From Streptomyces sp. NBC_00271 (GTDB lineage: Bacteria > Actinomycetota > Actinomycetes > Streptomycetales > Streptomycetaceae), in assembly GCF_036178845.1 (NCBI RefSeq), contig NZ_CP108070.1, forward strand, positions 10,974,001 through 11,038,000: 64,000 nt of DNA, in the 5' to 3' direction. The notes beneath the pieces were generated by a model. That model made no database searches. It had not been told where the DNA came from and saw only the letters and a program-made list of their open reading frames with translations. Positions 5,178 to 49,332 of the stretch are shown here, one piece after another (the stretch's first letter is position 1; each line of letters begins with the position of its first letter). Made by a program: the position numbers and the translations under genes.

Positions 5178-5587
5178 ACCCCACCGCACGTCCGTCCCCG
5201 GAGTTTCGGGATGGAGGGGGGATCACGCACGGCCACGGAACTTCGAACCGGGGCCGAGGTCTGGCGCGGGCGCCGTTCCGGTGGGGACGCAGGACCCCTC
5301 GCGGATGCCGATCCCGACGCCCGCGCCTGACTCGATGATCACTCCGAAGGGCCGCGTGCAAGAGGGCCGACCGGCCCCTGACGGGGGACGATGGGGTCCT
5401 TGCGGGGCGCGTTCTGTCGTGGTGTCTGGAGGTAGGGCGCAACCGCGACGTGCGGCGGAATCCCGGGCCGCCCGGCGAGCGGAGGTGTAAGCGGGCTCGT
5501 CGCGGCGCCGACACGTACGGCAGTCCGCTCGACTGGGTGCCCGACGGCTGGGACCCTGTCGCATCGGGAGCAGATCAGGAGGATGCC
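5178..5587. other. Upstream region of the first Acg-type nitroreductase
   Basis: This is a 410-base gene-free stretch. It contains one perfect copy of the recurring inverted repeat (5364-5377) and the ribosome binding site GGAGG at 5578-5582. I see no coding sequence supported in either direction. Confidence 0.6.
5364..5377. promoter_or_regulatory. DosR-like inverted repeat GGGCC-GACC-GGCCC
   Basis: This is a perfect 5+5 inverted repeat with a 4-base spacer, 210 bases before the nitroreductase ATG. It has the same form as copies at 17317, 20040, 24091, 26703 and 49319. The half-site GGGNC resembles the DosR/DevR box of mycobacteria (GGGAC-N4-GTCCC). Binding is inferred. Confidence 0.5.
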
Positions 5588-6577
5588 ATGGCATCGCGAC
5601 TCGATGAGGAGACGGTGGCGAAGCTGGTGGCCGAGGCCACGGCGGCCCCGTCCATGCACAACGCGCAGCCGTGGCGCTTCCGCTTCCTGAGCAGCGAGCG
5701 GCTCGTGCTGCTGTACGCCGACCCGGAGCGGGCCATGCCCCACTCGGATCCCGACAACCGGGCGTTGCACATCGGCTGCGGGGCTGCGCTGTTGAACCTG
5801 CGTGTCGCCGCCGCGCACGCAGACCTTGTCCCCGAGACACGACTGCTGCCCGAACCGCAGGATGGACTGCTGCTCGCCGCCGTGCACCTGGCCGACCCCA
5901 CGGGGCGCTTTCGGGACGACGACCTGGCTCGGCTGCACCCGGTGATCCGGGAGCGGCACACCAGCCGCTACCCCTTCGCCGAGAAGGACGTACCCGAGGA
6001 CGTGCGGGCCACCTTGCAGGATGCTGCCACGCGGGAAGGGGCCGAGCTGCTCTTCCCCGGCCTGTGGCATGCCGAGACCGTGCTGGACCTCGTCCGTGAC
6101 GCCGAAAGCCGCGACATCATGGGCACCGAGGCCAATGAGGACCTGGTGCGCTGGACCCGGCTTGGTCCCGAGGCGGACACCGCCGTCGACGGCGTCCCCG
6201 AATACGCCTTCGGGCCGCGCAAACGGGACGGCAAGGCTCCTGTACGGGACTTCACCGGGCGCCGGCCGGTAGCCGACCGCGGCACCACCACCTTTGAGCA
6301 CACCCCGCACTTGGCCCTGCTCAGCACCCTCAGTGACGGCCCCGCCGACTGGCTGCGGGCCGGGCAGGCACTCGAACGAGTCCTGCTGGAGGCCACCCTG
6401 GCCGACCTGGCCACCTCTCTGACCTCGCACGCCCTGGAGGACCGAGAGCTGCGCCTGCTTGCCCGCGACCCGGGACTGGGCACCGGCCAGGTGCAAATGG
6501 TGCTGCGGCTGGGCTACGGTCCGCGAGGCCCGGCCACGCCCCGCCGCCCCGTATGGGATGTCCTGGAGATCGCATGA
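5588..6577 (+). CDS. Acg-family nitroreductase-like flavoprotein
   Basis: The 329-residue protein has the N-terminal segment AAPSMHNAQPWRF typical of Rv2032/Acg and Rv3127-type proteins. A second pattern, ALHIGCGAALLNLRVA, and a C-terminal VLRLGYGP complete the nitroreductase fold. Members of this family are induced through DosR in mycobacteria and are thought to bind or sequester FMN; the substrate is unknown. The ATG at 5588 has GGAGG five bases upstream. A paralogue with very similar motifs lies at 34748-35752. It stands alone, with a DosR-like repeat upstream. Confidence 0.88.
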   Translation: MASRLDEETVAKLVAEATAAPSMHNAQPWRFRFLSSERLVLLYADPERAMPHSDPDNRALHIGCGAALLNLRVAAAHADLVPETRLLPEPQDGLLLAAVHLADPTGRFRDDDLARLHPVIRERHTSRYPFAEKDVPEDVRATLQDAATREGAELLFPGLWHAETVLDLVRDAESRDIMGTEANEDLVRWTRLGPEADTAVDGVPEYAFGPRKRDGKAPVRDFTGRRPVADRGTTTFEHTPHLALLSTLSDGPADWLRAGQALERVLLEATLADLATSLTSHALEDRELRLLARDPGLGTGQVQMVLRLGYGPRGPATPRRPVWDVLEIA

Positions 6578-6710
6578 TCAGGCGCCGTGGTGGTTTGCCG
6601 GGCGGGAGCGAGACGCTCCGGAGTGCGGATGTAGTCCTGACGGAACCGACGATCCGTGATCATTGGCGGTGTGGCGGGGATGCAACCACGCGCGCGTGCT
6701 GCGGTGCGTA

Positions 6711-7141
6711 CCCCGGTCGGGGGGCTGTTGTCGTACGCGGTGTCGGTGGATACGGCGTCCCGGTCGGTGCTGGGGCAGATCTATGAACTCGCGGACAGCC
6801 GGGGCCTTCCACCGGTCTGTATTACCTCCTGCGGGCACGGCATCGGCTGCAGGAGCCGCAGGCGGATGTCGACCGGGCCTCGGACGAGGAACTCGTGGCG
6901 ATGTTCATGGCCTGTCGCAGTGCCCGCGACCGGCTGATCGTGCTGTTGCACGCCCGGGTGGGACTGCGTCGCGGTCAGGTCGCCGGCCTGCGGCGCAGTG
7001 ACTGCCACCTGCTGCCCGATTCACGCCACCTGGGCTGCCACTACAAGGGCGCACACGTGCATGTCCGGCGGCGGAGCAACACGAACCGGGCCTGGTCGAA
7101 GTCGAAGAAGGAGTGGATCCTTCCCGTTGGGGGCAGCACAC
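6711..7141 (+). pseudogene. Remnant of a tyrosine recombinase/integrase
   Basis: One frame gives SVDTASRSVLGQIYELADSR. After a shift, another gives DRASDEELVAMFMACRSARD, then VLLHARVGLRRGQVAGLRR and ARVHV-type sequence ending in SKSKKEWILPV. This matches the core of integrases found with Tn554-like or plasmid-derived elements, including the Arg of the GLRRGE-type box. The N-terminal DNA-binding part and the catalytic C-terminal His/Tyr region are missing, so it is inactive. It marks an old insertion next to the copper oxidase genes. Confidence 0.6.
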
Positions 7142-7207
7142 CTGGCACGGCGGGCATGTCGCGACGAGCTGAACTAGGTTGGGTTCAGGGGAACTGCTTC
7201 AGGGGAC

Positions 7208-13488: not shown

Positions 13489-13565
13489 GATCCCGGGCGG
13501 CCCCAGTGGGTGCAGGGCTCCACCGCCTCGTGGTTCCGGGCCAGTAGGTCGGTTGGTCCCGTTCA

Positions 13566-13579
13566 GGGACGTCTGGCCC
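13566..13579. promoter_or_regulatory. DosR-like inverted repeat GGGAC-GTCT-GGCCC
   Basis: Copy of the recurring 5+4+5 element, 61 bases before the universal stress protein start. It sits in a wider palindrome (CAGGG...CCCCTG). The left half GGGAC equals the mycobacterial DosR half-site. Confidence 0.55.
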
Positions 13580-13640
13580 CTGACCTGACCACGACCGCGT
13601 CACCACGCTGGAATCGAATGCTTACCCGGAGGTGGAGACC

Positions 13641-15524: not shown

Positions 15525-17285
15525 ATGGTTCAGGGTCGGCTTGCCGAGGGGACCAGGAGGAACGATGTGGCATGTCCCGAGCAGCCCCGCGTAAGACTGC
15601 CGCAGCTTAAGCTCGACGAGCTGCTGGAGGAACTGCAGGCCCGGATCGACGCGGCCCGCGGCACCCGCGACCGCGTGCACACCCTGCTCGTGGCGGTGCT
15701 CTCCGTCGGCCGGGAGCTGGAACTGGAGCACGCGCTGCACTCCATCGTGGAGGCGGCCGCGCTGCTCGTGAACGCCGAATACGCAGCTCTGGGCGTCATC
15801 AGCCCCGACGGCAAAACCCTGTCGGCCTTCCACACCGTCGGTGTGACCGAGCAGCAGATCGCCGAAGTCGGGCCCTTCCCGCAGGGCCACGGCATTCTCG
15901 GCGAACTGATCCGCCACCCGGAGCCGCTCCGTCTGGAGAAGATCTCCCAGCACCCGGCCTCGTACGGCTTCCCGCCCAACCACCGGCCGATGAACAGCTT
16001 CCTCGGAGTCCCGATCCGAGTCCGCGGCCAGGCCTTCGGCAACTTGTACCTGACTGAGAAACGCGGCGGGCTGCAGTTCGACGAGGAGGACGAGTCGCTG
16101 CTCGCCACACTTGCCGTGGCGGCCGGCGTGGCCATCGACAACGCCCGCCTCTACGAAGAATCCCGGCTGCGCGAGCGCTGGCTGCGGGCCAACGCGGAGA
16201 TCACCCACCTGCTGATGTCCGGCAGCGGGCGAGCCGAGGCTCTCGGCCTGATCGCGGAACGTGCCCGGACGATCTCGGCCTCTGCACTGGCGGCGGTCGC
16301 GATGCCGATGGAGGACACCAAGTCGCTCACCGTGGAGATCGCCGTGGGGCTCGACGCGGAGGAACACCGCGGGCTGGTGCTGCCCATGCACGAATCCCTG
16401 ATGGGACTGGCCTACTCCGCCGCTGCTCCGATCGCCAGCGACGACGTCACCCGGGATCCGCGGATCTGCCCGGAGCCTCCACGTTTCGGCGGACTCGGCC
16501 CTGCCGTTGCCGTCCCCATCGGTACAGGGGAAAGCGGCGTTCGCGGCGTGGTCCTGCTGGCGCGGGAGACGGGTCGGCCGACGTACTCGGAGCGGGAGAC
16601 CGAGATGCTGCAGGGCTTCGCCGCGCAGGCCGCGATCGCGATGGAACTGGCCGAGCGCCGACAGGACGCCGAACAGATCGCGGTACTCGAGGACCGCGAC
16701 CGGATCGCCCGGGACCTGCACGACCTGGCCATCCAGCGATTGTTCGCAACCGGGATGACGCTGCAGAGCGCGGGCCGATTCATCGAGCACCCCGAGGCGG
16801 CCGGACGGGTGCTGCGAGCCGTCGACGACCTGGACGAGACAATCAAGATCATCAGATCGACGATCTTCGGCTTGCGGGCGCGTGAGGGCACGGCCCACAG
16901 CGGGCTGCGGGCCCGCGTCGTCCGTGCGGTGGGCGAGGCGAGCCCGATACTGGGTTTCACTCCCAGCGTGCGCATGGAAGGCCTCGTCGACACCGATGTG
17001 CCACGTGAGATCGCCGACCACGTGATGGCCGTACTCTCCGAGGCCCTCACCAACATCGCACGGCACGCCCACGCCGGCCGGGCCCAGGTGGTCCTGACGA
17101 CTGACGGCCACGAGGCGTCTTTGACAGTCTCGGACGACGGGGTGGGAATAACGCCCGGCGGACGGCGCAGTGGACTGCGCAACATGGCCGAGCGAGCGGA
17201 GCAGCTGGGTGGCCGGTTCGAGGTGAGCAGCCCCGACAGGGGCGGCACGCTGCTGGCCTGGTGGGTTCCGCTGCCCGTCGAGTAG
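15525..17285 (+). CDS. DosS/OsdK-like GAF-GAF sensor histidine kinase
   Basis: The 586-residue kinase has a GAF domain at about 60-210 with LRLEKISQHPASYGFPPNHR, where His153 aligns by eye with the heme-ligating His149 of mycobacterial DosS. A second GAF domain lies at about 225-380. A HisKA_3 box follows (RDRIARDLHDLAIQRLFATG, phospho-acceptor His399), and a HATPase domain ends the protein (EALTNIARHAHAGRA, SDDGVGI). It is probably a redox or oxygen/NO sensor. ATG 15525 has GGAG seven bases upstream. No intact response regulator is adjacent, so its partner is presumably elsewhere. Heme binding is an inference. Confidence 0.88.
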   Translation: MVQGRLAEGTRRNDVACPEQPRVRLPQLKLDELLEELQARIDAARGTRDRVHTLLVAVLSVGRELELEHALHSIVEAAALLVNAEYAALGVISPDGKTLSAFHTVGVTEQQIAEVGPFPQGHGILGELIRHPEPLRLEKISQHPASYGFPPNHRPMNSFLGVPIRVRGQAFGNLYLTEKRGGLQFDEEDESLLATLAVAAGVAIDNARLYEESRLRERWLRANAEITHLLMSGSGRAEALGLIAERARTISASALAAVAMPMEDTKSLTVEIAVGLDAEEHRGLVLPMHESLMGLAYSAAAPIASDDVTRDPRICPEPPRFGGLGPAVAVPIGTGESGVRGVVLLARETGRPTYSERETEMLQGFAAQAAIAMELAERRQDAEQIAVLEDRDRIARDLHDLAIQRLFATGMTLQSAGRFIEHPEAAGRVLRAVDDLDETIKIIRSTIFGLRAREGTAHSGLRARVVRAVGEASPILGFTPSVRMEGLVDTDVPREIADHVMAVLSEALTNIARHAHAGRAQVVLTTDGHEASLTVSDDGVGITPGGRRSGLRNMAERAEQLGGRFEVSSPDRGGTLLAWWVPLPVE

Positions 17286-17316
17286 GAATTGCCTTCCGGA
17301 ACAGGAGCTGGAAGAC

Positions 17317-17330
17317 GGGCCACTCGGCCC
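17317..17330. promoter_or_regulatory. DosR-like inverted repeat GGGCC-ACTC-GGCCC
   Basis: Perfect 5+5 repeat, 72 bases before the CBS-BON gene at 17403 and just after the GAF kinase stop. Confidence 0.6.
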
Positions 17331-17402
17331 ATGCGGTGAACGTGTCCCTTGCTTCAGGCTGAAGGTGTCGTAGGACGGCACCCGAAACCAAGGGAGGACG
17401 CC

Positions 17403-19976: not shown

Positions 19977-20039
19977 GGTCTCTGCTTCCAGCGTGACCGC
20001 GGACAGACCCCGCCACCACAGGCCGCTCGGATCCGATCA

Positions 20040-20053
20040 GGGCCCTTCGGCCC
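20040..20053. promoter_or_regulatory. DosR-like inverted repeat GGGCC-CTTC-GGCCC
   Basis: Perfect 5+5 repeat, 63 bases upstream of the minus-strand cyclic-nucleotide-binding gene. Confidence 0.6.
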
Positions 20054-20769
20054 CTGCGAGCCGGCATCGCCGCCCCCACGCTGGAGGCACCCGACTGGAG
20101 GGCAGTCACCATGAGCGTCTCCACGAGCATCGCGGTCGGCGACCCGTTCCAGCACGATGCAAGTGTCGGGCGGGCGGTATTTTCCCGCCACTCTCCCGCC
20201 TGCGCGGGCGGGCGCTGAAGAAGCCCTTCCCACCCCGCACCGTCCTTGCGCAGTGCGACCTCGATCCGGGCGGCTGATCAGACTGTGGAACCGCACCGAG
20301 CTGACGGTGGTTCTGAAGGCGGTGTACCCCCACCCGAGCCACCCCGGCCGCATCCACCGTCTGGAATGGGACGCCGCCGACCGGCCCAGGGCGCTACGCC
20401 GTCGCGGTCGCCGGCACCTTGCTCGGACCAGGTCTGTCACCGTCTGTCGCCGCCGCGGGGGATGTCCTCGTCGCACGGCGCGAGGACGGGATCGTCCGGC
20501 ACCGGGTCGCCGCGGCACGCGCAGCGACCGACGCGGCCACGGCATGACGAGACGGGAAGGGCCATCCGCTTCTCGCGGATCCGGATTGCGCGGTGCGCGG
20601 CTGCGGGCCGCTTCTCCGCGTCTCCAACGGGTCCTTCCCGCCACCACCAGCACATCACGTTCTACCGCCGGTGCAACAGTGCCGTTCGGCCCTAATCCTG
20701 CTGCACACACAAGGAGTCGACACCGCGACCACGGCGATTCCCCGCTCCGCAACACAGCCATTCGGCGGG

Positions 20770-21130: not shown

Positions 21131-21385
21131 TCGGCCGGCGAGAAGTAGCTCTCCTCCTGTGTGAAGTGCGGGCGGAGGACGGTGTGCGGCGCGAGCGAGG
21201 GGTCGGGCGGGCCGCCGGGGCCCGGCTCGACGCCCGGCTCGTCATATCCCGCCTGTCCCATCCCACGCGAAGGGCTGCGTGATCGTCCTCGGTGACGAGC
21301 ACCCTTGGCCGCCCGGTCGAGCTGCCACTTGCGGCTCACGTGCTCCCAGGGCAGCAGATCCTGTTCATCCACCTCTCGGCGATGA

Positions 21386-21399
21386 GGGCCCATCGGTCC
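21386..21399. promoter_or_regulatory. DosR-like inverted repeat variant GGGCC-CATC-GGTCC
   Basis: One mismatch from the symmetric form (T in the right half, followed by a further C). It lies 124 bases upstream of the SHOCT gene start. Confidence 0.4.
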
Positions 21400-21523
21400 C
21401 TTGCATTGGCCTCACCGGCTCATGACGTGCTGCACGGTCTGGGCGAGCGTGAGAAGCAGACACTTCGAAAGCCGCAGGCACCGGCCCCTGGCTCGCGGTG
21501 TTCCTGGAGGGAGATGAGTCACC

Positions 21524-23991: not shown

Positions 23992-24090
23992 GATCCTCAC
24001 CTCTGCGGTCGGGTTCCCGTCGACGACCGCCGGACCGGGGCCGCCGACTGTCTGGTTTCCAGCCTTCCGCGGGCAGGTGGCCGGCGTCGT

Positions 24091-24104
24091 GGGCCGTTCG
24101 GCCC
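24091..24104. promoter_or_regulatory. DosR-like inverted repeat GGGCC-GTTC-GGCCC
   Basis: Perfect repeat embedded in a 16-base palindrome (T...A flanks), 99 bases upstream of the minus-strand lipoprotein gene. Confidence 0.6.
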
Positions 24105-30263: not shown

Positions 30264-30267
<4 letters not shown>

Positions 30268-30788: not shown

Positions 30789-32608
30789 AGGGCGCGACCG
30801 ACGCGGTCACCGTCACTCCCGGCGGCGGCCGGGAGCGACCCTGCCGCGTCCTGCGGGTGGCCGGTCCCCTGGTCGAAATGGAGTACGCGGTCGGTACCGC
30901 CATGTACGACGTCGTCTCCCTCGGCGAAGCCGGGCTGCCCGGCGAGGTGGTGGCGATCGAAGGAGGCGTGGTCACGGTCCAGGCGTACGAGTACACGGGC
31001 GGGCTGGCCCCCGGGCACAGCGCCCGTCCCCGGGGCATGCCGCTGGCCGCCCGCCTCGGCCCCGGTCTGCTCGGCGGGATCTTCGACGGTCTGCTGCGCC
31101 CGCTGTCCGGCGGTGGCGACTGGCTTCTCCCTGGTGCCGGCGCGACCGGGGACGGAGGGCGCCGGTGGCGGTTCACTCCCCGGGTGGCCGCAGGGGAACG
31201 GGTGTCGCAGGGCGAGACCCTGGGCGAGATCCGGGGAACCGGGCCGGTGCGCCTGCGGACTCTCGTACCGCCCGGTGCCGGCGGCGTGGTGGAGCGGATC
31301 GCCCCCGAGGACGTGTTTCCCGAGGACGCGGTCGTGGCCGTCGTCGGAGGCACCGAGGTGCGGATGACCGAGGACTGGCCCATCCGCCGTCCGCGCCCGG
31401 TTCGTGAACGCCTCGGTGCGGAGCAGCCGCTGAACACCGGCCAGCGCGCGATCGACCTGCTGTTTCCCGTCGCCCGGGGCAGTACCGTCGCCGTGCCCGG
31501 TGGCTTCGGAACCGGCAAGACGCTGCTGCTGCAGCAGATCGCCAAATGGTGCGACGCCGACGTCATCGTCTACATCGGCTGCGGAGAGCGCGGCAACGAG
31601 ATGGCCGACGTCATCACCGAACTGGCCGCGCTGGAGGACCCAAGGACCGGAGGCCGACTCGCCGATCGCACGGTGACCATCGCCAACACCTCGAACATGC
31701 CGATGATGGCCCGCGAGGCGAGCATCTACACCGGCGCCACGGTCGCCGAGTACTTCCGCGACATGGGACTCGACGTCGTGGTCATCGCCGACTCGACCTC
31801 CCGCTGGGCCGAGGCACTGCGCGAGTTCGCCTCGCGCACCGGCGCGCTGCCCGCAGAAGAGGGGTATCCGGCGGGCCTGGCCTCGGCGATCGCCGCCTTC
31901 TACGAACGGGCCGGTGCGGTGACCACGCTCGGAGGCGCCCGGGGTTCGGTGACCGTGATCGGCGCGGTCTCCCCGCCCGGCGGAGACATGACCGAACCGG
32001 TCACCGCCCACACCGAACGGTTCGTACGCTGCCTGTGGACCCTCGACCGTGAACTCGCCTACGCCCGCCATTACCCGGCGGTGTCCTGGGCGGGATCCTT
32101 CTCGCGCGACGCGCAGATCCTCGCCCCGGGCCACACGGCGGCCGGCGACGCCGACTGGTCCTCCCGGCGTGCCAGGGCCGCCGGCCTGCTGGCCGAGGCC
32201 GACCGGCTGGCCGACCTCGTCGACCTGATCGGCATCACCGCGCTTCCCGACCAGGAGCGGGTCAGCGTGCTCGCCGGACGGCTGATGCGTGAGGGCGTCC
32301 TCCAACAGAGCGCGCTCTCCGCTCAGGACTCCTACTGCGGTGCGGACAAGAGCGCGGCGCTCGTCGAGGCGGTGCTCGCGGTCGTCGACCGGTGCCGAGA
32401 GCTCGTCGACGCCGGCGTGCCCGCCGCGGTCGTGGAGGAGGTGGACTTCGGACCTCTGCTGCGCGCCCGCGAGGACGCCGGACCGAACGACGCCGCGGTC
32501 GTGGCGACTCGACGGAAGACCATGCTCGCCACGCTCACCGGGCTCACCGCGCTTCACGGGACGGCGACGGACGGGGAGGAAGACGGGGTGGAGGGGGAGA
32601 GGGCGTGA
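30776..32608 (+). CDS. ntpA: V/A-type ATPase catalytic subunit A
   Basis: The 610-residue protein carries the V-type A-subunit signature: a beta-barrel start (RVLRVAGPLVEMEYAVGTAM), the non-homologous insert, and the P-loop GGFGTGKT at residues 242-249 (usual form GPFGSGKT). The catalytic Glu lies in CGERGNEM. MMAREASIYTGATVAEYFRD and VVIADSTSRWAEALREF follow. All catalytic residues appear to be present. GTG 30776 has GGAG five bases upstream; GTG 30785, overlapping the subunit E stop, is an alternative. It overlaps subunit B by GTGA. Confidence 0.95.
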   Translation: MGTVKGATDAVTVTPGGGRERPCRVLRVAGPLVEMEYAVGTAMYDVVSLGEAGLPGEVVAIEGGVVTVQAYEYTGGLAPGHSARPRGMPLAARLGPGLLGGIFDGLLRPLSGGGDWLLPGAGATGDGGRRWRFTPRVAAGERVSQGETLGEIRGTGPVRLRTLVPPGAGGVVERIAPEDVFPEDAVVAVVGGTEVRMTEDWPIRRPRPVRERLGAEQPLNTGQRAIDLLFPVARGSTVAVPGGFGTGKTLLLQQIAKWCDADVIVYIGCGERGNEMADVITELAALEDPRTGGRLADRTVTIANTSNMPMMAREASIYTGATVAEYFRDMGLDVVVIADSTSRWAEALREFASRTGALPAEEGYPAGLASAIAAFYERAGAVTTLGGARGSVTVIGAVSPPGGDMTEPVTAHTERFVRCLWTLDRELAYARHYPAVSWAGSFSRDAQILAPGHTAAGDADWSSRRARAAGLLAEADRLADLVDLIGITALPDQERVSVLAGRLMREGVLQQSALSAQDSYCGADKSAALVEAVLAVVDRCRELVDAGVPAAVVEEVDFGPLLRAREDAGPNDAAVVATRRKTMLATLTGLTALHGTATDGEEDGVEGERA

Positions 32609-33987
32609 CCGGTTGGGGCGAGGTCGAATACACGGCGATCCGCGAACTGCGCGGCCCGCTCGCCGTCGTCGACGGGGTGACCGGGGTCGGCTGGGACGAG
32701 TTCGTCCGGATCACGCTCGACTCCGGGGAGCAGCGGCACGGCCTCGTACTGGAGGTGGACCGCGGACTCGCCGTGGTGCAGGTCCTGGAGGACACCACAG
32801 GCATGGATCCGGCGCGGGTCAGGATGGCCTTCGCCGGAGGGCCGTTGCGCATCCCGGTCGGTGCCGGCTGGCTGGGCCGGGTCTGCAACGGACGTGGTGA
32901 ACCGATCGACGGTGGGCCGCCGGTCTTCGGGGCCTCCACCGCGGCGGTGGGCGGGAATCCGATCAACCCGGTGCGGCGTGAACCGCCGGCGGACCCGGTG
33001 CTCACGGGCGTCGGAGCCGTGGACGCGCTGACCACCCTCGTACGAGGCCAGAAGCTGCCGGTGTTCTCCGTCGCGGGCCTGCCGCACCTGGAGCTGGCCG
33101 CGCAGATCGCGGCCCAGTCCACGGCGGCCGGAGAGGCCTTCAGCGTCGTCTTCGCCGGAATGGGACTCACCCACGCGGACGCGTCCTTCGTCCGCGACGC
33201 CCTGGAGCAGCGGTCCGCCGCCGGAGAACTGGTCCTCCTGCTCAACACCGCCGACGACCCGGTCATCGAACGGATCCTCACCCCCAGGATCGCGCTCACG
33301 GTCGCGGAACACCTCGCCTTCGACATGGGCAGGCACGTGCTCGTGGTCATGACCGACATGACCAGCTACGCCGAGGCACTGCGCGAAGTCTCCGCGGCGC
33401 GCGGCGAGATCCCCGCCCGCCGCGCCTACCCCGGCTATCTCTACAGCGACCTCGCCTCCCTCTACGAACGCTGCGGACGCATCCGCGGCCGGCCCGGCTC
33501 CGTCACCGTCCTCCCGGTGCTCACCATGCCCGCCGGTGACATCACCCATCCGGTCTCCGACCTCACCGGCTACATCACGGAGGGGCAGATCGTGCTGTCC
33601 CGCGAGACGCACGCGCAGGGCGTCTATCCACCCGTGGACGCCCTGTCCTCGCTCTCCCGCCTGATGCGCAAGGGCGCTGGTCCCGGCCGTACCCGGCCCG
33701 ACCACCTCGATGTCGCCGCGCAGATGCTCGCCGCCCTGGCCCGTGCCCGGCAGGTACGTGAGTTCGCCGACCTGGTCGGGCAGACCGCGCTGAGCCAGGC
33801 CGACCGCCGGTACCTCGAATTCGACGAGGCCTTCCTGCGGCGCTTCGTGGACCAGCGGCGCGACGAACTGCGGACCCTCGACGAGACGTTGGAAAGCGCC
33901 TGGCGGGTGCTGCTCACCCTGCCCCGCGGTCAGCTCGCCATGCTGCCGCCCGCGCTGCTGGACGCGCACGGCGCGGAGCGGGGGTGA
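32605..33987 (+). CDS. ntpB: V/A-type ATPase regulatory subunit B
   Basis: The 460-residue protein has the subunit B pattern: EYTAIRELRGPLAVVDGVTG, GRVCNGRGEPIDGGPPV, NPVRREPPADPVLTGVGAVD, LVVMTDMTSYAEALREVSAA, and RRAYPGYLYSDLASLYERCG with SVTVLPVLTMPAGDITHPVS. It lacks a functional P-loop, as expected for the non-catalytic nucleotide-site subunit. It forms the A3B3 head with subunit A. Four-base overlaps exist with both neighbours. Confidence 0.95.
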   Translation: MTGWGEVEYTAIRELRGPLAVVDGVTGVGWDEFVRITLDSGEQRHGLVLEVDRGLAVVQVLEDTTGMDPARVRMAFAGGPLRIPVGAGWLGRVCNGRGEPIDGGPPVFGASTAAVGGNPINPVRREPPADPVLTGVGAVDALTTLVRGQKLPVFSVAGLPHLELAAQIAAQSTAAGEAFSVVFAGMGLTHADASFVRDALEQRSAAGELVLLLNTADDPVIERILTPRIALTVAEHLAFDMGRHVLVVMTDMTSYAEALREVSAARGEIPARRAYPGYLYSDLASLYERCGRIRGRPGSVTVLPVLTMPAGDITHPVSDLTGYITEGQIVLSRETHAQGVYPPVDALSSLSRLMRKGAGPGRTRPDHLDVAAQMLAALARARQVREFADLVGQTALSQADRRYLEFDEAFLRRFVDQRRDELRTLDETLESAWRVLLTLPRGQLAMLPPALLDAHGAERG

Positions 33988-34664
33988 ACGCGGTGGCCCC
34001 CATCCGTACTCCGCCCGGGCGTGCCGGCCGGCAGCATCTGCTGCACCGCCTGGCCGTCGCCGCGCGGGGAGCCGACCTGCTGGAGAAGAAGCTTCGTGTC
34101 CTGCGCACGGAACACCAGCGCCTCGTACAGGCCGAGGAGGCCTGCGCGGCCGCCTGGCGGGAGCGGCTGGGGGAGGCCGAGACCTGGTTGTCGCGCGGGC
34201 TCGTCCTGAGCGGGGAGCACGCCCTCTACGCGGCGGCGGCCGGTCTCGCTCCGGCGGACGTCACCGTCCGCTGGACCGCGTCCATGGGAGTGCGTCGCCC
34301 CTCGGGGATCTCGTGCACGGTCCCCGCACGCCCGACGAGCGCAGCCACACCGGGCAACACCGCCCTGGTCCACGCCGAGGCCGCCTACCGGCTAGCGGTA
34401 CGGGCCGCCGCCGACCACGCCTGCGCACGGGCAGCCGCGCGCATCGTCGGCGCGGAGGTGGCGAGCACGAGTCGGCGGGTCCGCGCGCTCCGGCGCCATT
34501 GGATCCCGCGCCTGCAGGAGGCACTGGCCCACGTGGACCTCGCTCTGGAGCAGAGCGAGCACGAGGACTCGGTCCGGCGGCGGTGGGCCGCTCAGGTCCT
34601 GAAGGGAATGGAACGGCCGACCGAGCGGGATGGACCGTCCGAAGACCGAAGTGCCCGGCGCTGA
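33984..34664 (+). CDS. ntpD: V/A-type ATPase subunit D (rotor shaft)
   Basis: The 226-residue, mostly helical protein has the subunit D N-terminal phrase in variant form (GRQHLLHRLAVAARGADLLE, KKLRVLRTEHQRL). The paired C-terminal helix contains AAARIVGAEVASTSRRVRAL, RRHWIPRLQEALAHVDLALE. Subunit D is the central shaft turned by the A3B3 head. It is the last gene of the nine-gene operon; no clear hairpin follows, and 83 bases separate it from the convergent nitroreductase gene. Confidence 0.88.
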   Translation: MNAVAPIRTPPGRAGRQHLLHRLAVAARGADLLEKKLRVLRTEHQRLVQAEEACAAAWRERLGEAETWLSRGLVLSGEHALYAAAAGLAPADVTVRWTASMGVRRPSGISCTVPARPTSAATPGNTALVHAEAAYRLAVRAAADHACARAAARIVGAEVASTSRRVRALRRHWIPRLQEALAHVDLALEQSEHEDSVRRRWAAQVLKGMERPTERDGPSEDRSARR

Positions 34665-34747: not shown

Positions 34748-35752
34748 TCAGGGCTGGATGTCGAGTACCTCCGGTACCGGGCGGCGTGGTGTGCCGGGGC
34801 CCCCGGGCCCGTAGCCGAGGCGAAGAACCATCTGTACGTGGGCGGAGCCCGACAACGGGTCTCGCAGTGGCCAGCGCAGGTCCGGCCATTCCAGGGCCTG
34901 AGTGACGAACGAGCTGGACAGACCTTCGAGGTTGGCCAGCAGCAGCACGTGCTGCATGGCCTGCCCGGCACGCAGCCAGTCCTCCGGGCGGTCGCGAGAG
35001 GTGCTGAGGAGGGCGAGTTGGGGGGAGCGTTCGAATGCGGTCGCGGTGCGGCCCGCCACTGACCTGGCGCCCGCGAAATCGCGCACCGGAGCCTTGCCGC
35101 CGCGCTTACGCGGCCCGAAGGCGTACTCCGGGACCCCGTCAGCGGCCGACATCACCGATGGGGTGCCGATACGGGTCCAGGTGGCCAGGTCCTCGTCGCT
35201 GCCGCGATCGGTCCGATTGCGTGCCTCGGCCTCCTCGACGAGTTCCAGCACCTCCTGCAGATGCCATGCGGTGGCGAAGGACAGTGACGCCCCCTCCAGA
35301 TGGGCGGCGTCGCTCAGTGCCGTCCGCACGGCCTCGGGTATCTCCGTCTCCTCGAACGGGAAACGACTGCTGTGTCGCTGGTGGATCGCCGGATACAGCG
35401 CGGCGAGGTCGCTCTCGCTGCTTCCGAACCCGGTCAGTTGTACGGTCGCGAGCAGGGCGGGGTCGGCGAGGTCGGGCAGCAGCAGGGTCGCCGGGTACCA
35501 GCCCCCGTGGGCGACCGAGACCCGCAGGTTGAGCAGCGCGGCGCCGCAGCCGAGGTGGAGGGCGCGGGTGTCCGGGTCGCTGTGGGGCATGGCTCGGGCG
35601 AGATCGGCGCGCACATGGAACGTGCGGCTGCCCTCGAAGTAGCTGAACCGCCACGGCTGTGCGTTGTGCATCGACGGCGCGGCCGTGGCGTCGCGGACCA
35701 GGGTCGCCACACGCTCCGGCGAGAGTGCTCGTTGGCTCACCGGTGCCTCCAT
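34748..35752 (-). CDS. Acg-family nitroreductase-like flavoprotein (paralogue 2)
   Basis: The 334-residue protein shares its motifs with the protein at 5588: AAPSMHNAQPWRF, ARAMPHSDPDTRALHLGCGA, PEYAFGPRKRGGKAPVRDFA and VLRLGYGPGGPGTPRRPV. It is therefore a paralogue of the Rv2032/Rv3127 type. FMN binding and sequestration is the usual suggestion; no substrate is known. It starts at ATG 35752. It is 86 bases downstream of the XRE-PNPOx gene on the same strand and may be co-transcribed with it. Confidence 0.88.
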   Translation of the reverse strand: MEAPVSQRALSPERVATLVRDATAAPSMHNAQPWRFSYFEGSRTFHVRADLARAMPHSDPDTRALHLGCGAALLNLRVSVAHGGWYPATLLLPDLADPALLATVQLTGFGSSESDLAALYPAIHQRHSSRFPFEETEIPEAVRTALSDAAHLEGASLSFATAWHLQEVLELVEEAEARNRTDRGSDEDLATWTRIGTPSVMSAADGVPEYAFGPRKRGGKAPVRDFAGARSVAGRTATAFERSPQLALLSTSRDRPEDWLRAGQAMQHVLLLANLEGLSSSFVTQALEWPDLRWPLRDPLSGSAHVQMVLRLGYGPGGPGTPRRPVPEVLDIQP

Positions 35753-36795: not shown

Positions 36796-37336
36796 GGTCG
36801 CCGCCCCTTCCTCAGAATGGTGCTGTACCCAACGTGCCACGCGCACAGGCCCGCCGCATGGCCCGAACAGCCCGACCAGGGGTGCCGAACGGACTGTTCT
36901 CCGGCCGACCGGCCCCTCAAGAGCTGTCGAGGGCGCCGCACCCGGTGGCGGCCGGTTCCAGACACTGCGGGGCATCGTCAGCCGCGGCGACGGCTGCGGA
37001 TATTTTTGCGGCGCGACGACGCCATCCGTGACGAGAAGACCGGGGACGCGCTGCGGCGGGCGCGCCCGGCCCAGCTTCCTCCGGGGTGACGATCGAGGTG
37101 TGTGAGGGGCAGTTGACCCTGGGCGGATCCGTCGAGGTCCAAGGCCGGTCTGATCCCGGGCATCGAGCGGCGGTGACGGAGCGTTGACGGCGTCGTCTCG
37201 GTCTCTGAGCACATCGCCTGCCGGAACGACGACTCACGCTCCCCGGGCACATGAGATCGAGGTGGATGTCCGTCGTCGCCGGGCACCGGGCGTGTGCGTG
37301 GCCCGGGTCTACGCGAGCCCGCTGCGCCGACGTCCG
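36796..37336. other. Gene-free spacer of about 540 bases
   Basis: It carries the inverted repeat variant at 36902. No coding sequence in either direction has recognisable content or a good ribosome binding site. Confidence 0.5.
36902..36915. promoter_or_regulatory. DosR-like inverted repeat variant CGGCC-GACC-GGCCC
   Basis: One mismatch in the first base of the left half. It is 106 bases upstream of the minus-strand DUF1918-XRE-PNPOx gene. Confidence 0.45.
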
Positions 37337-38136: not shown

Positions 38137-38519
38137 CGACGCCAACTCCTCGCCGCCGGTGGGGGCTTCACCCAAGCACTGGCGCAGGCGCGCGGACCGA
38201 CCGGGTTCGCCCACGAGTGGGCCCGGCTTCACGCGGGCGGTCCCGCTCCGTTCCCCACCACGGTCGAACGGCGGCGAACCCCGGTCATAGGGCCGAAGGT
38301 CCCCGGCGGGCGGCCATCCGGGCCACGCACCGGCGGGACTCACCCCTACGACCCGTCGCACCGGAGAGTCCGCATGCGCCGCGAGCGGATTTCGGGTACT
38401 CCTCGGATGAAAGGTGTGAGAGGCAACCGTGTTCGGCGCGTCGGCGCGGACGATCGAGCAGTGGGCAAGTGGACCCGCTCACGGTCATTCCGGTTTCTTA
38501 CGAGACGAAGGTAGTCGCC
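38137..38519. other. Divergent promoter region before the tandem USP gene
   Basis: A 383-base spacer between the pncB remnant (minus) and the USP gene (plus). It carries the repeat at 38290. No supported gene. Confidence 0.5.
38290..38303. promoter_or_regulatory. DosR-like inverted repeat GGGCC-GAAG-GTCCC
   Basis: Fits GGGNC-N4-GNCCC exactly. It is 216 bases from the USP start and 153 bases from the start of the pncB remnant. Confidence 0.45.
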
Positions 38520-41604: not shown

Positions 41605-41916
41605 CCGACCGCACCTCCTCATCGCCGTTGACTGGACGGTGCCATTGGGGAACGCGCGGCGGCAGGGGCCGACCAGGCGGCATCGCGCCCCCGCTCGGTC
41701 CCGCAATGGGGACCGATCGGCCCAAGCGGACGGGCGTCGTCGCCCTCAGGCTGGACATACAAGGCCAACCCGCGCGTGAGTAGGCCGCGCAGCGGCGCCC
41801 CACCAGCCAACCTCGGAGTCGGCGAGTCGACCGGGAGGGGTGGTCGCGCGCATCGGGGCGCTCGCACGCCGTAGTCCCCCGCCACCGGCGTCCGCCTGGC
41901 CCAGAAAGGGGTCGTC
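41605..41916. other. Divergent spacer between Rv1733c-like and alcohol dehydrogenase genes
   Basis: 312 bases with the repeat variant at 41710 and nothing else that I can support. Confidence 0.5.
41710..41723. promoter_or_regulatory. DosR-like inverted repeat variant GGACC-GATC-GGCCC
   Basis: One mismatch (A for G in the left half), with two extra G before it. It is 105 bases from the minus-strand Rv1733c-like gene and 193 bases from the plus-strand dehydrogenase. Confidence 0.45.
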
Positions 41917-43710: not shown

Positions 43711-43783
43711 CGTCATGGGTCGGGGTGCGATGACCTCATGGGTCGGTTGGGGCACCGAAGGGTGGCCGCTCTCAGGCCGACCT

Positions 43784-43797
43784 GGACCGAAGGGCCC
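43784..43797. promoter_or_regulatory. DosR-like inverted repeat variant GGACC-GAAG-GGCCC
   Basis: One mismatch, the same substitution as at 41710. It is 91 bases upstream of the small PNPOx-like gene. Confidence 0.4.
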
Positions 43798-43888
43798 TCG
43801 CCTCTGTCCCTCGCCCCTCACAGGATGAAACACGTACCGCTGTACCCCGTGACGGCTGAGCCCGTCCACCCCGTGAAAGTCGAACCCG

Positions 43889-44350: not shown

Positions 44351-44403
44351 ACGGCCCAGTGCGCCGTCTCCCCGTCGACCGGGGAGACGGCGCACTGGGC
44401 CGT
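44351..44403 (+). terminator. Perfect 23-base-pair hairpin terminator
   Basis: Bases 44351-44373 are exactly complementary to 44381-44403, with a 7-base loop. The stem begins ACGGCCCAGTGCGCC. It starts 18 bases after the PNPOx stop and isolates this gene from the arginine operon. The right arm ends 16 bases before the DosR-like repeat of that operon. Confidence 0.85.
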
Positions 44404-44419
44404 TCGGGGCGACGCGCCC

Positions 44420-44433
44420 GGGACCAATGGCCC
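44420..44433. promoter_or_regulatory. DosR-like inverted repeat GGGAC-CAAT-GGCCC
   Basis: Fits GGGNC-N4-GNCCC; the left half equals the mycobacterial half-site. It is 109 bases upstream of the permease that opens the arginine deiminase operon. Confidence 0.5.
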
Positions 44434-44542
44434 CCGTGGGGGACGAGTGGCCGCTGACCACGATCACGGCAGCCCAGCAGGATCGTTCCCGGATCGACTT
44501 TTCCGCAGCCCGTCCCCAGCGACCCGCGCAAGGAGCACAGCC

Positions 44543-46027
44543 ATGTCCAGCACCCCAAGCAGCGGCGAGAAACCAACCCCCAAGGCGGCACTGGGCCTCC
44601 CCTCGGCGACCGCGCTCGTGATCGGCAGCATCATCGGCACCGGAGTCTTCGCGCTCCCCTCGGCCCTCGCACCGTACGGGCCGATATCGCTCGTGGCGTT
44701 CGGCGTCGTCACGCTCGGCGCGCTCGCCCTCGCAGTCACCTTCGGGGCGCTGTCGAAGCGCGTCCCGGCGAGCGGCGGGCCGTACGTCTACGCCCGTGAG
44801 GCCTTCGGCGAGTTCGCCGGCTTCCTCAACGCCTGGTCGTACTGGATCACCGCGTGGGCCGGGAACGCCGCCATCGTGGTGGCGTGGGTCGGATACGTCG
44901 AGGTGTTCGTCAACACCGGCCACCGTACGGCGATGTCGGTGCTCATCGCGCTGGTCGGGCTGTGGATCCCGGCCGCGATCAACCTCACCGGCGTACGGAA
45001 CATCGGTGCCTTCCAAGTGATCACCACCGTGCTGAAGTTCATCCCGCTGGTCTTCATGGCCACGGTCGGGCTGCTGTTCGTGGACGCGCACAACTTCGGT
45101 TCCTTCAACGCCGGCGGCCAGTCGGCGATGGGCGCGATCTCGGCCGCCGCGGCCATCGCCCTGTTCAGCTACCTCGGCCTGGAGGCCGCCTCCGTGGTCG
45201 CCGGCCGGGTCCGTGAGCCCGGCCGCAACGTGCCGCGCGCCACCGTGTACGGCACCCTTGCCTGCGCGGTCATCTACATCCTGGGCACGCTCGCCGTCTT
45301 CGGCACCGTCCCGCACGGCGAACTCGGTTCCTCCACAGCGCCGTTCACCGACGCCGCCAACAACATCTTCGGCGGCACCTGGGCCGGTGACACGGTCGCG
45401 GTGGCTGCCATCATCTCCGGGATCGGCGCTCTCAACGGCTGGACCATGCTCTGCGCAGAGATGCCGTACGCCGCCGCCCGCGACGGACTCTTCCCCGGGG
45501 CCTTCGCGAAGCTGCGCGGCGAGAACGGCGTCCCGGTGTTCGGCATCGTCGCCTCCACCGTCCTCGCCTCGCTGATCACCGTGTTCAGCTACACCCGCTT
45601 CGACGACGTCTTCACCAAGATCGTGCTGCTGAGCGTGCTCACCGCCGTGATCCCGTACCTCTTCTCCGCCGCCGCCCAGCTGTACTGGCTGCTGGTCCGA
45701 GGCCGCGAGCACCTCAGCCCCCGGCGGCTGGCCCGGGACGCCACCGTCTCCGCGCTGGCGATGGCCTTCTCGTACTGGTCGATCCAGGGCAGCGGCTACC
45801 AGACCGTCTATTACGGACTGTTCGTCCTGCTGCTCGGACTACCGGTGTACGTGTGGCTGAAGCGCGACCGCGGGGAGTACGGCGAGACCGGCGGCGTGCG
45901 GCTCGCGGCCGCGCCCGGAGAGGTGCGGGCCGCGGAGACCGTCCTGACGGCCAAGCGACTCTCCCGAGGCCTGCCCACGAGCCGAACCGGCGGCTTCCGG
46001 AAGAGCCCCCTCAACCACCAGGACTGA
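44543..46027 (+). CDS. APC-family amino acid permease (likely arginine/ornithine exchanger)
   Basis: The 494-residue protein has about 12 membrane helices. The APC start motif is ALVIGSIIGTGVFALPSALA, followed by SGGPYVYAREAFGEFAGFLN. The helix-6 region is AAIALFSYLGLEAASVVAGR, where Gly-rich unwound segments bind the amino-acid backbone. Its place directly before arcA-arcB-arcC argues for arginine uptake coupled to ornithine export, the AdiC/ArcD role; substrate choice is inferred from context. AAGGAG lies seven bases before the ATG. Confidence 0.87.
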   Translation: MSSTPSSGEKPTPKAALGLPSATALVIGSIIGTGVFALPSALAPYGPISLVAFGVVTLGALALAVTFGALSKRVPASGGPYVYAREAFGEFAGFLNAWSYWITAWAGNAAIVVAWVGYVEVFVNTGHRTAMSVLIALVGLWIPAAINLTGVRNIGAFQVITTVLKFIPLVFMATVGLLFVDAHNFGSFNAGGQSAMGAISAAAAIALFSYLGLEAASVVAGRVREPGRNVPRATVYGTLACAVIYILGTLAVFGTVPHGELGSSTAPFTDAANNIFGGTWAGDTVAVAAIISGIGALNGWTMLCAEMPYAAARDGLFPGAFAKLRGENGVPVFGIVASTVLASLITVFSYTRFDDVFTKIVLLSVLTAVIPYLFSAAAQLYWLLVRGREHLSPRRLARDATVSALAMAFSYWSIQGSGYQTVYYGLFVLLLGLPVYVWLKRDRGEYGETGGVRLAAAPGEVRAAETVLTAKRLSRGLPTSRTGGFRKSPLNHQD

Positions 46028-46078
46028 CCGCACCACTCCACCGCCCGGCATTCGTACGACCACAGGAGCAGCCACGCC

Positions 46079-47293
46079 ATGAACACCTTCCACGTCGACT
46101 CCGAGGTCGGCCGCCTCCGCCAGGTGATCCTGCACCGCCCCGGCCTCGAACTCTCCCGGCTGACCCCGCGCAACGTCGACTCCCTGCTCTTCGACGACAT
46201 CCTCTGGGCCAAGCGGGCTCGCGAGGAGCACGACGCCTTCGCCCAGGTCCTGCGCGACCACGGAGCCCGTGTGCACTACTTCGCCGACCTGCTGGCCCAG
46301 ACCCTCGACGTCCCGGAGGCCCGTGACTGGCTCCTGGACCGGGTCGTCACCCGCGCGAGTGTCGGCCCTGCCCTGCTGGATCCGGTGCGCGCGCGCTGCG
46401 CCGAGCTGGACGGCGAGACCCTCGCCGGCTACCTGATCGGCGGCATGCTCAAGAGCGACCTGCCGCTCGCCACCCCGCACAGCCTGGTCTGGAACGCGCT
46501 CGACACCGACGCCTTCGCGCTCGCCCCACTGCCCAACCACCTCTTCCCGCGCGACAACTCCTGCTGGATGTACGACCGGTTGTCGGTCAACCCGATGGCC
46601 AAGCACGCCCGGCGGCGCGAGAGCCTGCACGCCGAGGCCATCTACCGGTTCCATCCGATGTTCGCCTCCGTCGCGCCCGAGCCGATCCTCGACGGCCCCG
46701 TGGGGACGCTCGAAGGCGGCGACGTGCACGTCCTCGGCAACGGCGCCGTCATGGTCGGCATGGGGGAGCGGACCACCGCCCAGGCCGTGGAGAACCTGGC
46801 CGGGCGGCTCTTCGCCGACGGCACGGTCACCCGGCTGATCGCCGTCCAACTCCCCGCCACCCGTGCGTACATGCACCTCGACACCGTGCTGACCATGCTC
46901 GACCGCGACGCCTTCGCCATCTACCCGGGCCTCGCCGACGCCCTGCGCTCGTGGACCCTGCGGCCCAGTGACGCCCACGCGACCGGCTTCGACGTCACCC
47001 CCAACTCCGACCTGGCGACCGCGCTCGCCGAGGCCCTCGACCTCGACAAGGTGCGGATGCTCTCCGCGCCGCAGGACATGGCGGGCGCCGAGCGCGAACA
47101 GTGGGACGACGGCAGCAACTTCCTCGCGCTCGCGCCCGGAGTCGTCGTCGGCTACGAGCGCAACGTCACCACCAACACCTACCTCCGCAAGCAGGGCATC
47201 GAGATCGTCACCATCGCCGGCGCCGAACTCGGCCGCGGCCGGGGCGGCCCGCGCTGCATGAGCTGCCCGATCGAACGCGACCCGGCCGACTGA
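46079..47293 (+). CDS. arcA: Arginine deiminase
   Basis: The 404-residue enzyme hydrolyses arginine to citrulline and ammonia. The guanidine-modifying signatures are all present: [69 protein letters not shown] and the catalytic Cys393 in [15 protein letters not shown]. The length is normal. It starts 51 bases after the permease stop, in the same operon. Arginine deiminase is a cytosolic enzyme of anaerobic ATP supply. Confidence 0.96.
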
Positions 47294-47374
47294 GCGTCGC
47301 CGTCACCGACACGGCCGTACGCCCCGACGACACCCCGGCCCCTGCCCGCATCAGCCTCATCAGCGAGGAACCTC

Positions 47375-48376
47375 ATGACCACAGACCTGCGAGGCCGCTC
47401 CTACCTGAGCGAACTCGACTTCACCGCCGCCGAGATCCACCACCTTCTCGACCTGGCCGCCGAGCTCAAGGCGGCCAAGCGCTCCGGCACCGAACAGCCC
47501 CGGCTGACCGGCAAGCATCTCGCGCTGATCTTCGAGAAGACCTCCACCCGCACCCGCTGCGCCTTCGAGGTCGCCGCCGCCGACCAGGGCGCCGCCACCA
47601 CCTACCTCGGCCCCGGCGACACCCACGTCGGCAGCAAGGAGTCCATCGCCGACACCGCCCGCGTCCTCGGACGGATGTTCGATGCCATCGAGTACCGCGG
47701 CTCCGCCCAGTCGATCGTCACCGAACTCGCGGCCCGCTCCGGTGTCCCCGTCTACAACGGCCTGACCGACACCGCGCACCCGACCCAGAGCCTGTGCGAC
47801 GTCCTCACCATGCACGAGCACAGCCCCAAACCACTGCAGGAAATCAGCTACTGCTATCTCGGCGACGCCCGCAACAACATGGGCAACTCGTTGCTGTCGA
47901 TGGGCGCCCTGCTCGGCATGGACGTACGGATCGCCGCGCCCAAGGCGCTGTGGCCCGAGCCGGAGTTGGTCGGGTCGTGCCGCGCGCTCGGCGAGGGCAG
48001 TGGGGCCCGGATCACCCTCACCGAGGACGTCGAGACCGCTGTACGCGGCGCGGACTTCCTGCACACCGACGTCTGGGTCTCCATGGGCGAACCGGCCGAC
48101 ACCTGGCGCGAGCGCATCGAACTGCTGGCGCCCTACCAGGTCAATGCCAAGACGCTCGCCCTCACCGGCAACCCGGACGTCAGGTTCATGCACTGCCTGC
48201 CCGCCCTCCACGACCACAGCACCCGCCTGGGCCGCGAACTGCTCGACACCTACGGCCTCGACGGCCTCGAAGTCACCGACGAGATCTTCTCCTCGGCCGC
48301 CTCCGTCGTCTTCGACCAGGCGGAGAACCGGCTGCACACCATCAAGGCCGTACTAGTCGCCACCCTGGAGGACTGA
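47375..48376 (+). CDS. arcB: Ornithine carbamoyltransferase, catabolic
   Basis: The 333-residue enzyme converts citrulline and phosphate to ornithine and carbamoyl phosphate in this pathway. It shows the carbamoyl-phosphate loop [15 protein letters not shown], then [14 protein letters not shown], and the ornithine loop [10 protein letters not shown] with the catalytic Cys. The catabolic role is inferred from the arc gene order. It lies 81 bases after arcA; no hairpin is evident between them. Confidence 0.95.
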
Positions 48377-48379
48377 GCC

Positions 48380-49303
48380 ATGCGCATCGTCATCGCCCTC
48401 GGTGGCAACGCCCTGCTGCACCGCGGTGAACGCCCCGACGCGGCCGTCCAGGAAGCGAACATCGACCGGGTGACCACGGCGATCGCCGCCCTCGCCCAAG
48501 AACACGAGATCGTCATCACCCACGGCAACGGCCCCCAGATAGGGCTGCTCGCCGTCGAGAGCGCCGCCGACCCCGCCCTGAGCGCCCCCTACCCGCTGGA
48601 TCTGCTCGGCGCCCAGACCCAGGGCATGATCGGCTCCCTGCTGGCACGCACCCTGCACGACGCCCTGCCCGGACGGCGGATCGCCGCGCTGGTCACCCAC
48701 ACCCTTGTCCGCGCCGACGACCCGGCCTTCGACCACCCCACCAAGTTCGTCGGCCAGGTGTACCCCTACGAGGTCGCCTCCACGCTCGCCCGAACGCGCG
48801 GCTGGCACATCGCCGCCGACACCACCGGCTGGCGCCGCGTCGTCCCCTCCCCGGCACCCGAACGCATCCTGGAGACCGACACCGTCCACGAACTGCTGAA
48901 CAGCGGCACGCTCGTCATCTGCGCCGGCGGCGGAGGCGTCCCTGTCACCGCCGAGAAGGACACCGGCGCACTCACCGGTGCCGAGGCCGTCATCGACAAG
49001 GACCTCACCGCGGCGCTGCTCGCCGAGGACCTGAAGGCCGACTTCCTCCTCATCCTCACCGACGTGCCCTGCGTCTACGCCGGCTACGGCACCCCCGACC
49101 AGCGGCCCGTCCTCGGCGCGACCCCCGCCGAACTGCGCCGCGGCGGCTTCCCCGACGGCTCGATGGGTCCCAAGACCGAGGCCGCCGCCCGGTTCGTCGA
49201 ACACACCGGGGGACTGGCCGCGATCGGATCCCTGGACGCCGCGTACGAGATCGTCCACGGCAGGTCGGGCACCCTCGTCAGGCCGGACCTGACCGTCGCG
49301 TGA
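48380..49303 (+). CDS. arcC: Carbamate kinase
   Basis: The 307-residue enzyme makes ATP from carbamoyl phosphate and ADP, the energy-yielding step. Motifs are MRIVIALGGNALLHRGERPD, IVITHGNGPQIGLL, VICAGGGGVPVTAEK and ADFLLILTDVPCVYAGYG of the amino-acid-kinase fold. Three bases separate it from arcB, so the two are coupled. It is the last gene of the arginine operon; 145 bases with a repeat follow before the formate-lyase gene. Confidence 0.95.
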   Translation: MRIVIALGGNALLHRGERPDAAVQEANIDRVTTAIAALAQEHEIVITHGNGPQIGLLAVESAADPALSAPYPLDLLGAQTQGMIGSLLARTLHDALPGRRIAALVTHTLVRADDPAFDHPTKFVGQVYPYEVASTLARTRGWHIAADTTGWRRVVPSPAPERILETDTVHELLNSGTLVICAGGGGVPVTAEKDTGALTGAEAVIDKDLTAALLAEDLKADFLLILTDVPCVYAGYGTPDQRPVLGATPAELRRGGFPDGSMGPKTEAAARFVEHTGGLAAIGSLDAAYEIVHGRSGTLVRPDLTVA

Positions 49304-49318
49304 ACGCCCGTGACCAGA

Positions 49319-49332
49319 GGGCCGAACGGCCC
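49319..49332. promoter_or_regulatory. DosR-like inverted repeat GGGCC-GAAC-GGCCC
   Basis: Perfect repeat within a longer palindrome (GAGGGCC...GGCCCTC). It lies 15 bases after the arcC stop and 116 bases before the pyruvate formate-lyase start. Confidence 0.6.

Follow-up and report, generated by a model that had tools for sequence, protein, structure and literature searches.

We analysed a 64,000-nucleotide stretch of the genome of Streptomyces sp. NBC_00271 (contig NZ_CP108070.1, positions 10,974,001 to 11,038,000), hereafter the window, in which the palindrome GGGCC-N4-GGCCC recurs between genes. Based on sequence comparison, these palindromes are, with a probability of roughly 0.92, operator sites (OsdR boxes) of OsdR, the Streptomyces homologue of DevR/DosR. 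The boxes very probably mark a predicted island of low-oxygen survival genes, which includes a rotary ATPase, an arginine-fermentation operon and pyruvate formate-lyase (PFL). The regulon itself is of a known kind; the genome is new. The predicted boxes and the genes that accompany them are presented in Table 1.

Palindromes of the window and the OsdR consensus

The OsdR consensus AGGGCCGATCGGCCCT was derived from the osdR upstream regions of 12 Streptomyces species, and gel shifts showed that OsdR binds the consensus site, and binds it more weakly once mutated (PMC5069765). The palindrome of the window is the same palindrome as this consensus. We used the 25 distinct S. coelicolor sites of Table 1 of that paper (predicted, some of them gel-shift tested) to construct an OsdR matrix, whose site is a 16-mer starting one base ahead of the 14-base palindrome. 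A preliminary description of the window, made from the DNA letters alone, had listed 13 sites as DosR/DevR-type boxes. All 13 are intergenic on our gene map, for which both the genes and their starts were taken from a home-made gene caller, and their matrix scores run from 5.7 (17317) and 8.0 (44420) up to 21.8 (49319). Eleven of the 13 score at least 10.8; the list holds up less well at 17317, which is poor, and at 44420, which is weak, and it omitted a strong box at 20678. The 44420 box is weak alone, and conserved spacing is all that speaks for it.

The strict form GGGCC-N4-GGCCC is found in seven exact copies in the window, compared with a mean of 0.67 and a maximum of 3 in 100 dinucleotide shuffles. 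Six of them (5364, 17317, 20040, 24091, 26703 and 49319) lie exactly where they had been reported; the seventh, at 34797, had been left out, lies in coding sequence and was judged a chance copy. On the gene map, intergenic DNA (12.7 kb) accounts for six of the seven copies and coding DNA (about 51 kb) for one. The whole genome contains 149 strict copies in 12.28 Mb, which corresponds to about 0.8 expected per 64 kb versus the seven of the window. As had been supposed, the loose form GGGNC-N4-GNCCC is at chance level: 14 copies are present versus 9.8 expected, and at least 14 were reached in 11 of 100 shuffles, which is not significant. Concerning GGGCCGNNCGGCCC, 16 of its 47 genomic copies fall in a 164-kb stretch that overlaps the window and makes up 1.3% of the genome.

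The island, its regulator and the pairing of boxes

Over 264 kb around the window there are 34 matrix matches scoring at least 12, all between C1:10858854 and C1:11023318, the last of which is the formate-lyase site of the window. Within this island (169 kb), 30 matches are found in 36.4 kb of intergenic DNA and four in 132.6 kb of coding DNA; the comparison with coding frequency, which the preliminary description had proposed as a refuting check, did not refute its reading. The flanks (95 kb, 13 kb of which are the end of the window) contain no match at this threshold, intergenic or coding, and ten 20-kb control stretches, one of which the gene caller called wholly coding, contain two in 34.9 kb of intergenic and two in 165.1 kb of coding DNA. 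Across the whole island, 28 of 35 site–gene pairs are 55-140 bp apart, so that the earlier estimate of mostly 60-130 bases to the start codon was about right.

The targets of DevR/DosR in M. tuberculosis include the Rv1733c, Hsp20, USP and nitroreductase families, and all four of these core families are among the predicted targets of the island. Outside the window, predicted boxes precede an Hsp20 gene, six USP genes, two nitroreductase genes and two acyl-CoA-synthetase/acetyltransferase genes. A [NiFe] hydrogenase operon is also located there (L034:2493-12949; C1:10956493-10966949), with genes for the large, small, NAD-binding and Fe-S subunits, hyp genes, CBS-BON and a cNMP-domain gene; two predicted boxes precede the Fe-S subunit gene, by 93 and 135 bp, and another lies 78 bp ahead of the gene for the maturation protease. 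M. smegmatis is said to possess a DosR-controlled hydrogenase.

The DevR homologue is a response regulator of 233 amino acids (C1:10883118-10883816, minus strand), encoded within the island 90 kb from the window. It matches M. tuberculosis DevR (3c3w) with 253 bits, the next PDB sequence reaching 142, and a box scoring 17.2 is found 95 bp upstream of its own gene. The window itself encodes a DevS/DosT-like sensor kinase, whose first GAF domain conserves His139 and Tyr161, 22 residues apart in the alignment; we take these to be the heme ligand and the distal Tyr, respectively. Its sequence suggests a heme GAF domain of the DevS/DosT type. A second kinase, 59% identical to that of the window, adjoins the gene of the DevR homologue tail to tail.

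Half of the intergenic island sites (15/30) have a partner site (score of at least 0) 20-22 bp away on either side. In 71 other distance classes the mean partner count is 1.23 and the maximum 4, and random intergenic anchors (1000 draws) give a mean of 1.66 partners at 20-22 bp and a maximum of 7. Outside the window, 10 of 20 sites are paired in this way, and within it partners lie exactly 21 bp downstream of 5363, 24090, 26702, 38289 and 49318. M. tuberculosis DevR binds cooperatively and in close packing to a strong site and an adjacent weak one (PMC3029386); for this reason the strong-plus-weak architecture of the boxes is probably of a known kind. The terms 'tandem' and 'two binding sites' are absent from the main text of the OsdR paper (PMC5069765), and a spacing rule of about 21 bp for OsdR boxes was not found in the literature searched.

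The pairing also bears on two other explanations of the palindromes. The first, that the boxes form attenuator or terminator hairpins in the RNA of 5' leaders, is very improbable. The strict form could form a 5-bp stem with a 4-base loop, and the stretch 49300-49360 folds somewhat better than its shuffles (z -1.70), but z was 0.20 and 0.22 for two other folded stretches, which is ordinary. Among 55 sites, the fifth pair of the 16-mer departs on one side at a time (A-G 5, C-T 5; A-T at most 1) without compensation on the other, which argues for a DNA site rather than an RNA hairpin; moreover, several boxes are placed between divergently oriented genes, serving both strands, and pairing at 20-22 bp fits helical phasing on DNA. 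We rejected the hairpin on the one-sided half-site changes and the mostly ordinary folding energies. The second explanation, chance in DNA of 70% G+C, has a negligible probability. It agrees with the level of the loose form, and the strict form, counted over the whole genome, is less frequent than its reversed control (149 vs 290), so that the excess of the strict form shows only in the island. It is contradicted by the shuffles, the clustering of GGGCCGNNCGGCCC, the confinement of sites to the island and their intergenic excess, the conserved positions of the boxes and their pairing.

Concerning other promoter elements, GCTSGAA-like words are found about 42 or 63 bp past the box starts in several island promoters (e.g. 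those of the sites at C1:10865700 and C1:10942878). With one mismatch allowed, GCTCGAA occurs in 11/35 and GCTGGAG in 20/35, the largest shuffle word count being 23, which is not significant; the word is a possible promoter element and a lead only.

Distribution of boxes and operons among relatives

We searched 147 genomes of the order for OsdR homologues and counted AGGGCCGRHCGGCCC in the same 147. Among the 132 genomes of the same genus, 97 contain a homologue (E < 1e-90), 31 do not and four are borderline. The mean number of motif copies is 5.07 with the homologue (n=97) and 1.55 without it (n=31), a 3.3-fold difference (Mann-Whitney p 2e-10) in statistics that ignore phylogeny and genome size; the borderline genomes (n=4) have a mean of 4.00.

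The three energy operons of the window differ in their distribution across the genus. The A subunit of the V/A-ATPase is found in 11 of 121 genus genomes, our own included. In nine of the ten relatives with V/A-ATPase (relatives compared here are not independent of one another) the operon start adjoins a divergent CBS-BON gene, and in eight of the ten a box scoring 13.9 to 22.4 lies ahead of the operon. Arginine deiminase (ADI) is present in 118 of the 121 genomes, and the island type (86-100% identity) in 13, including our own and two partial matches. A second ADI copy of this genome (C1:8471517-8472728), 58% identical to that of the island, belongs to a type common to most of the genus. Weak boxes precede the island-type ADI operon at -127 to -130 in 8/11 relatives and at -104 to -106 in 6/11, and the 23-bp step between them is common to the relatives and the window; no such box series is found before nine housekeeping ADI copies.

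PFL is found in 45 of the 121 genomes. The best match within 400 bp upstream beats the resamples of its own locus at p ≤0.05 in 15 of 39 actinobacterial PFL loci, 11 of these being among the 18 Streptomyces loci. In an alignment of 11 PFL promoters the promoter-proximal block is present in all (11/11) and the upstream box in six. High-identity PFL promoters contain a box scoring at least 9.9 in 10 of 12 cases, the best scores of lower-identity promoters (n=8) being 5.1 to 15.1 (p 0.048 between the classes). In two loci (L050 and L057) the genes for PFL, its activase, OsdR and the kinase lie side by side.

Several of these results weigh against reading the palindromes as OsdR boxes, as does the genome-wide rarity of the strict form. 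In the window, the sites 17316 and 44419 score poorly on the OsdR matrix (5.7 and 8.0). Among the genomes, the reversed control also differs with the presence of the homologue (4.90 vs 3.45; p 0.002, 1.4-fold), and some homologue-bearing genomes have no motif copy (e.g. G024, G076 and G084). Among the orthologous operons, two V/A-ATPase loci of the ten relatives (L142 and L143) are without a box, as are S. griseorubiginosus (L048) and L177 before PFL genes 88-89% identical to that of the window, and only the 15 of 39 PFL loci reach p 0.05. The lower-identity PFL promoters, intended as a control, bear moderate boxes too and are not a clean negative; the regulation may thus extend to PFL genes outside the island.

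The same promoters are relevant to a further explanation, that some or all of the boxes are read by another response regulator of the NarL/LuxR type, paralogous to OsdR, so that related regulators share the island. Their similar boxes are located in 22-kb loci where genes for OsdR, USP and the kinase were not found, and our genome contains two matches to the OsdR query at E ≤1e-60, many genomes having two to four. The close DevR match, however, sits in the island with its own box, and motif number tracks its presence; we therefore consider a paralogue unlikely, though the most plausible of the three alternatives. The earlier proposal of DosR/DevR boxes, here OsdR boxes, is supported at the level of sequence by the published consensus, the island-limited intergenic excess, the DevR homologue, the genus trend and the boxes before orthologous operons.

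Table 1. Predicted OsdR boxes of the window and associated features (window coordinates; scores are those of the OsdR matrix)
Feature	Position	Strand	Location	Basis
Predicted OsdR box	5363..5378		Before nitroreductase-family gene (start 5450 or 5588, end 6577, +)	18.9; partner 21 bp downstream 4.2; Nitroreductase domain (Pfam)
Predicted OsdR box	13565..13580		Between SulP/STAS fragment (13069-13488, -) and USP gene (13641-14162, +)	13.1; Pfam
DevS/DosT-like sensor kinase	15567..17285	+		GAF-GAF-HisKA_3-HATPase (Pfam); best PDB matches are GAF domains of DosT and DevS
Strict palindrome, doubtful site	17316..17331		Before CBS-BON gene (17403-18107, +)	5.7, poor
Predicted OsdR box	20039..20054		About 70 bp before cNMP-binding-domain gene (19500-19976, -)	16.4; PF00027
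Strong OsdR-type box AGTGCCGTTCGGCCCT	20678..20693		DNA without confident gene	17.8; intergenic
Predicted OsdR box	21385..21400		132 bp before predicted gene at 21524 (+)	13.1
Predicted OsdR box	24090..24105		Before lipoprotein-like gene (23194 to ~23991, -)	14.9; weak partner at 21 bp 1.2; lipobox-like AIGGC
Predicted OsdR box pair, 21 bp apart	26702..26738 (26702, 26723)		Between divergent CBS-BON gene (25776-26630, -) and V/A-ATPase operon	18.9, 9.6
V/A-type ATPase operon (I, K-like, E, A, B, C/AC39-type and further subunits)	26814..34664	+		Pfam, NCBIfam
Seventh strict palindrome	34797..34810		Inside nitroreductase gene (34748-35710, -)	2.3
Predicted OsdR box	36901..36916		113 bp before DUF1918-XRE-PNPOx gene (35839-36795, -)	11.6; Pfam
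Predicted OsdR box	38289..38304		Between nicotinate phosphoribosyltransferase-like fragment (37696-38136, -) and USP gene (38469-39395, +)	15.1; partner at 21 bp 3.3; Pfam
Predicted OsdR box	41709..41724		Between Rv1733c-family gene (41020-41604, -) and zinc alcohol dehydrogenase gene (41917-42987, +)	13.3; NF050032 (Rv1733c family); Pfam (dehydrogenase)
Predicted OsdR box	43783..43798		99 bp before PNPOx gene (43889-44332, +)	10.8; Pfam
Three weak OsdR-type boxes, 23- and 20-bp spacing	44396..44454		Before arginine deiminase operon	6.7, 8.0, 3.3
Arginine deiminase pathway operon (amino-acid permease, arginine deiminase, ornithine carbamoyltransferase, carbamate kinase)	44543..49303	+		Pfam, NCBIfam
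Strongest predicted OsdR box of the window and weaker partner 21 bp downstream	49318..49354 (49318, 49339)		Before pyruvate formate-lyase	21.8, 5.8; alignment with relatives
Pyruvate formate-lyase (formate C-acetyltransferase) and radical-SAM activase	49449..52450	+		TIGR01255 above cut-off; Pfam

The boxes at 20678 and 21385 lie in about 1.4 kb (20157-21520) without a confident gene, which may hold the remains of a decayed gene or encode a small RNA. An N-terminal piece of nicotinate phosphoribosyltransferase (37337-38136) and the SulP/STAS piece (13069-13488) look shortened or split. Mobile-element genes are also present, for a DDE transposase (9013-10230) and an IS605 OrfB/TnpB-like protein (54582-55760).

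Known regulons and a proposed role of the island

The regulon is known from other species. The island shares with the OsdKR regulon of S. coelicolor (SCO0167-SCO0219), as published (PMC5069765), the consensus, similar box positions (e.g. -81, -99 and -100) and an autoregulatory box. Targets common to both, clustered near osdR, are USP, nitroreductase, PNPOx, cNMP/Crp-like, PPDK and zinc dehydrogenase genes. There are also differences: the island extends across about 165 kb, the gene of the kinase next to osdR is tail to tail with it here whereas osdK and osdR form one operon in S. coelicolor, and the V/A-ATPase, the arginine deiminase operon and the hydrogenase are added. The words 'arginine', 'formate' and 'ATPase' are absent from the main text of that paper. 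In S. lividans TK24, genes for a putative pyruvate formate-lyase (SCO0206), PPDK, USP, nitroreductase, PNPOx and nicotinate phosphoribosyltransferase rise with osdR (PMC6302529), so that a correlation of PFL, PPDK and USP with OsdR is already on record; the portion of that paper searched gives co-expression only, with no sites, and does not contain arginine deiminase. In relation to DevR/DosR of M. tuberculosis, the regulator and the kinase GAF domain are homologous and an Rv1733c-family protein is encoded here; the box is richer in G+C, and fermentation and ATPase targets are added. Concerning these additions, the literature searched, by its listings and with most subscription journals outside the search, contained no report of V/A-ATPase, arginine deiminase or hydrogenase under OsdR, and no relevant title was among those listed for arginine deiminase, Streptomyces and hypoxia.

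We propose the following mechanism. The heme-type DevS/DosT-like kinases, one in the window and one beside osdR, would respond to low oxygen or NO by phosphorylating OsdR. A dimer of phosphorylated OsdR would bind the strong box and bring in a second dimer at the weaker box, at a distance of about two helical turns and close to RNA polymerase. Bound OsdR would switch on the USP, CBS-BON, nitroreductase, Hsp20, PNPOx and Rv1733c-family genes of the island, and also oxygen-independent energy genes: those for pyruvate formate-lyase, the arginine deiminase pathway, the V/A-type ATPase and the [NiFe] hydrogenase operon. More speculatively, and with less confidence than we would need to favour it, OsdR of this and related Streptomyces might command a whole oxygen-independent energy programme through a two-box code with a spacing of about 21 bp. 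In such a programme PFL and arginine deiminase would supply ATP at the substrate level, the [NiFe] hydrogenase would dispose of or recover electrons, and a dedicated V/A-type ATPase would maintain the membrane potential.

Streptomycetes do not grow without oxygen yet contain many genes of anaerobic metabolism, which has been called the 'anaerobic paradox' (PMC5069765). The energy programme, if true, would account for the survival of an obligate aerobe under anoxia. Should the sites be functional, a formate-lyase, a hydrogenase, an arginine-fermentation operon and a rare rotary ATPase would all be under one oxygen-linked regulator; the anaerobic paradox would then become testable in harmless laboratory species, and the island would offer a safe model for a dormancy control shared with mycobacteria.

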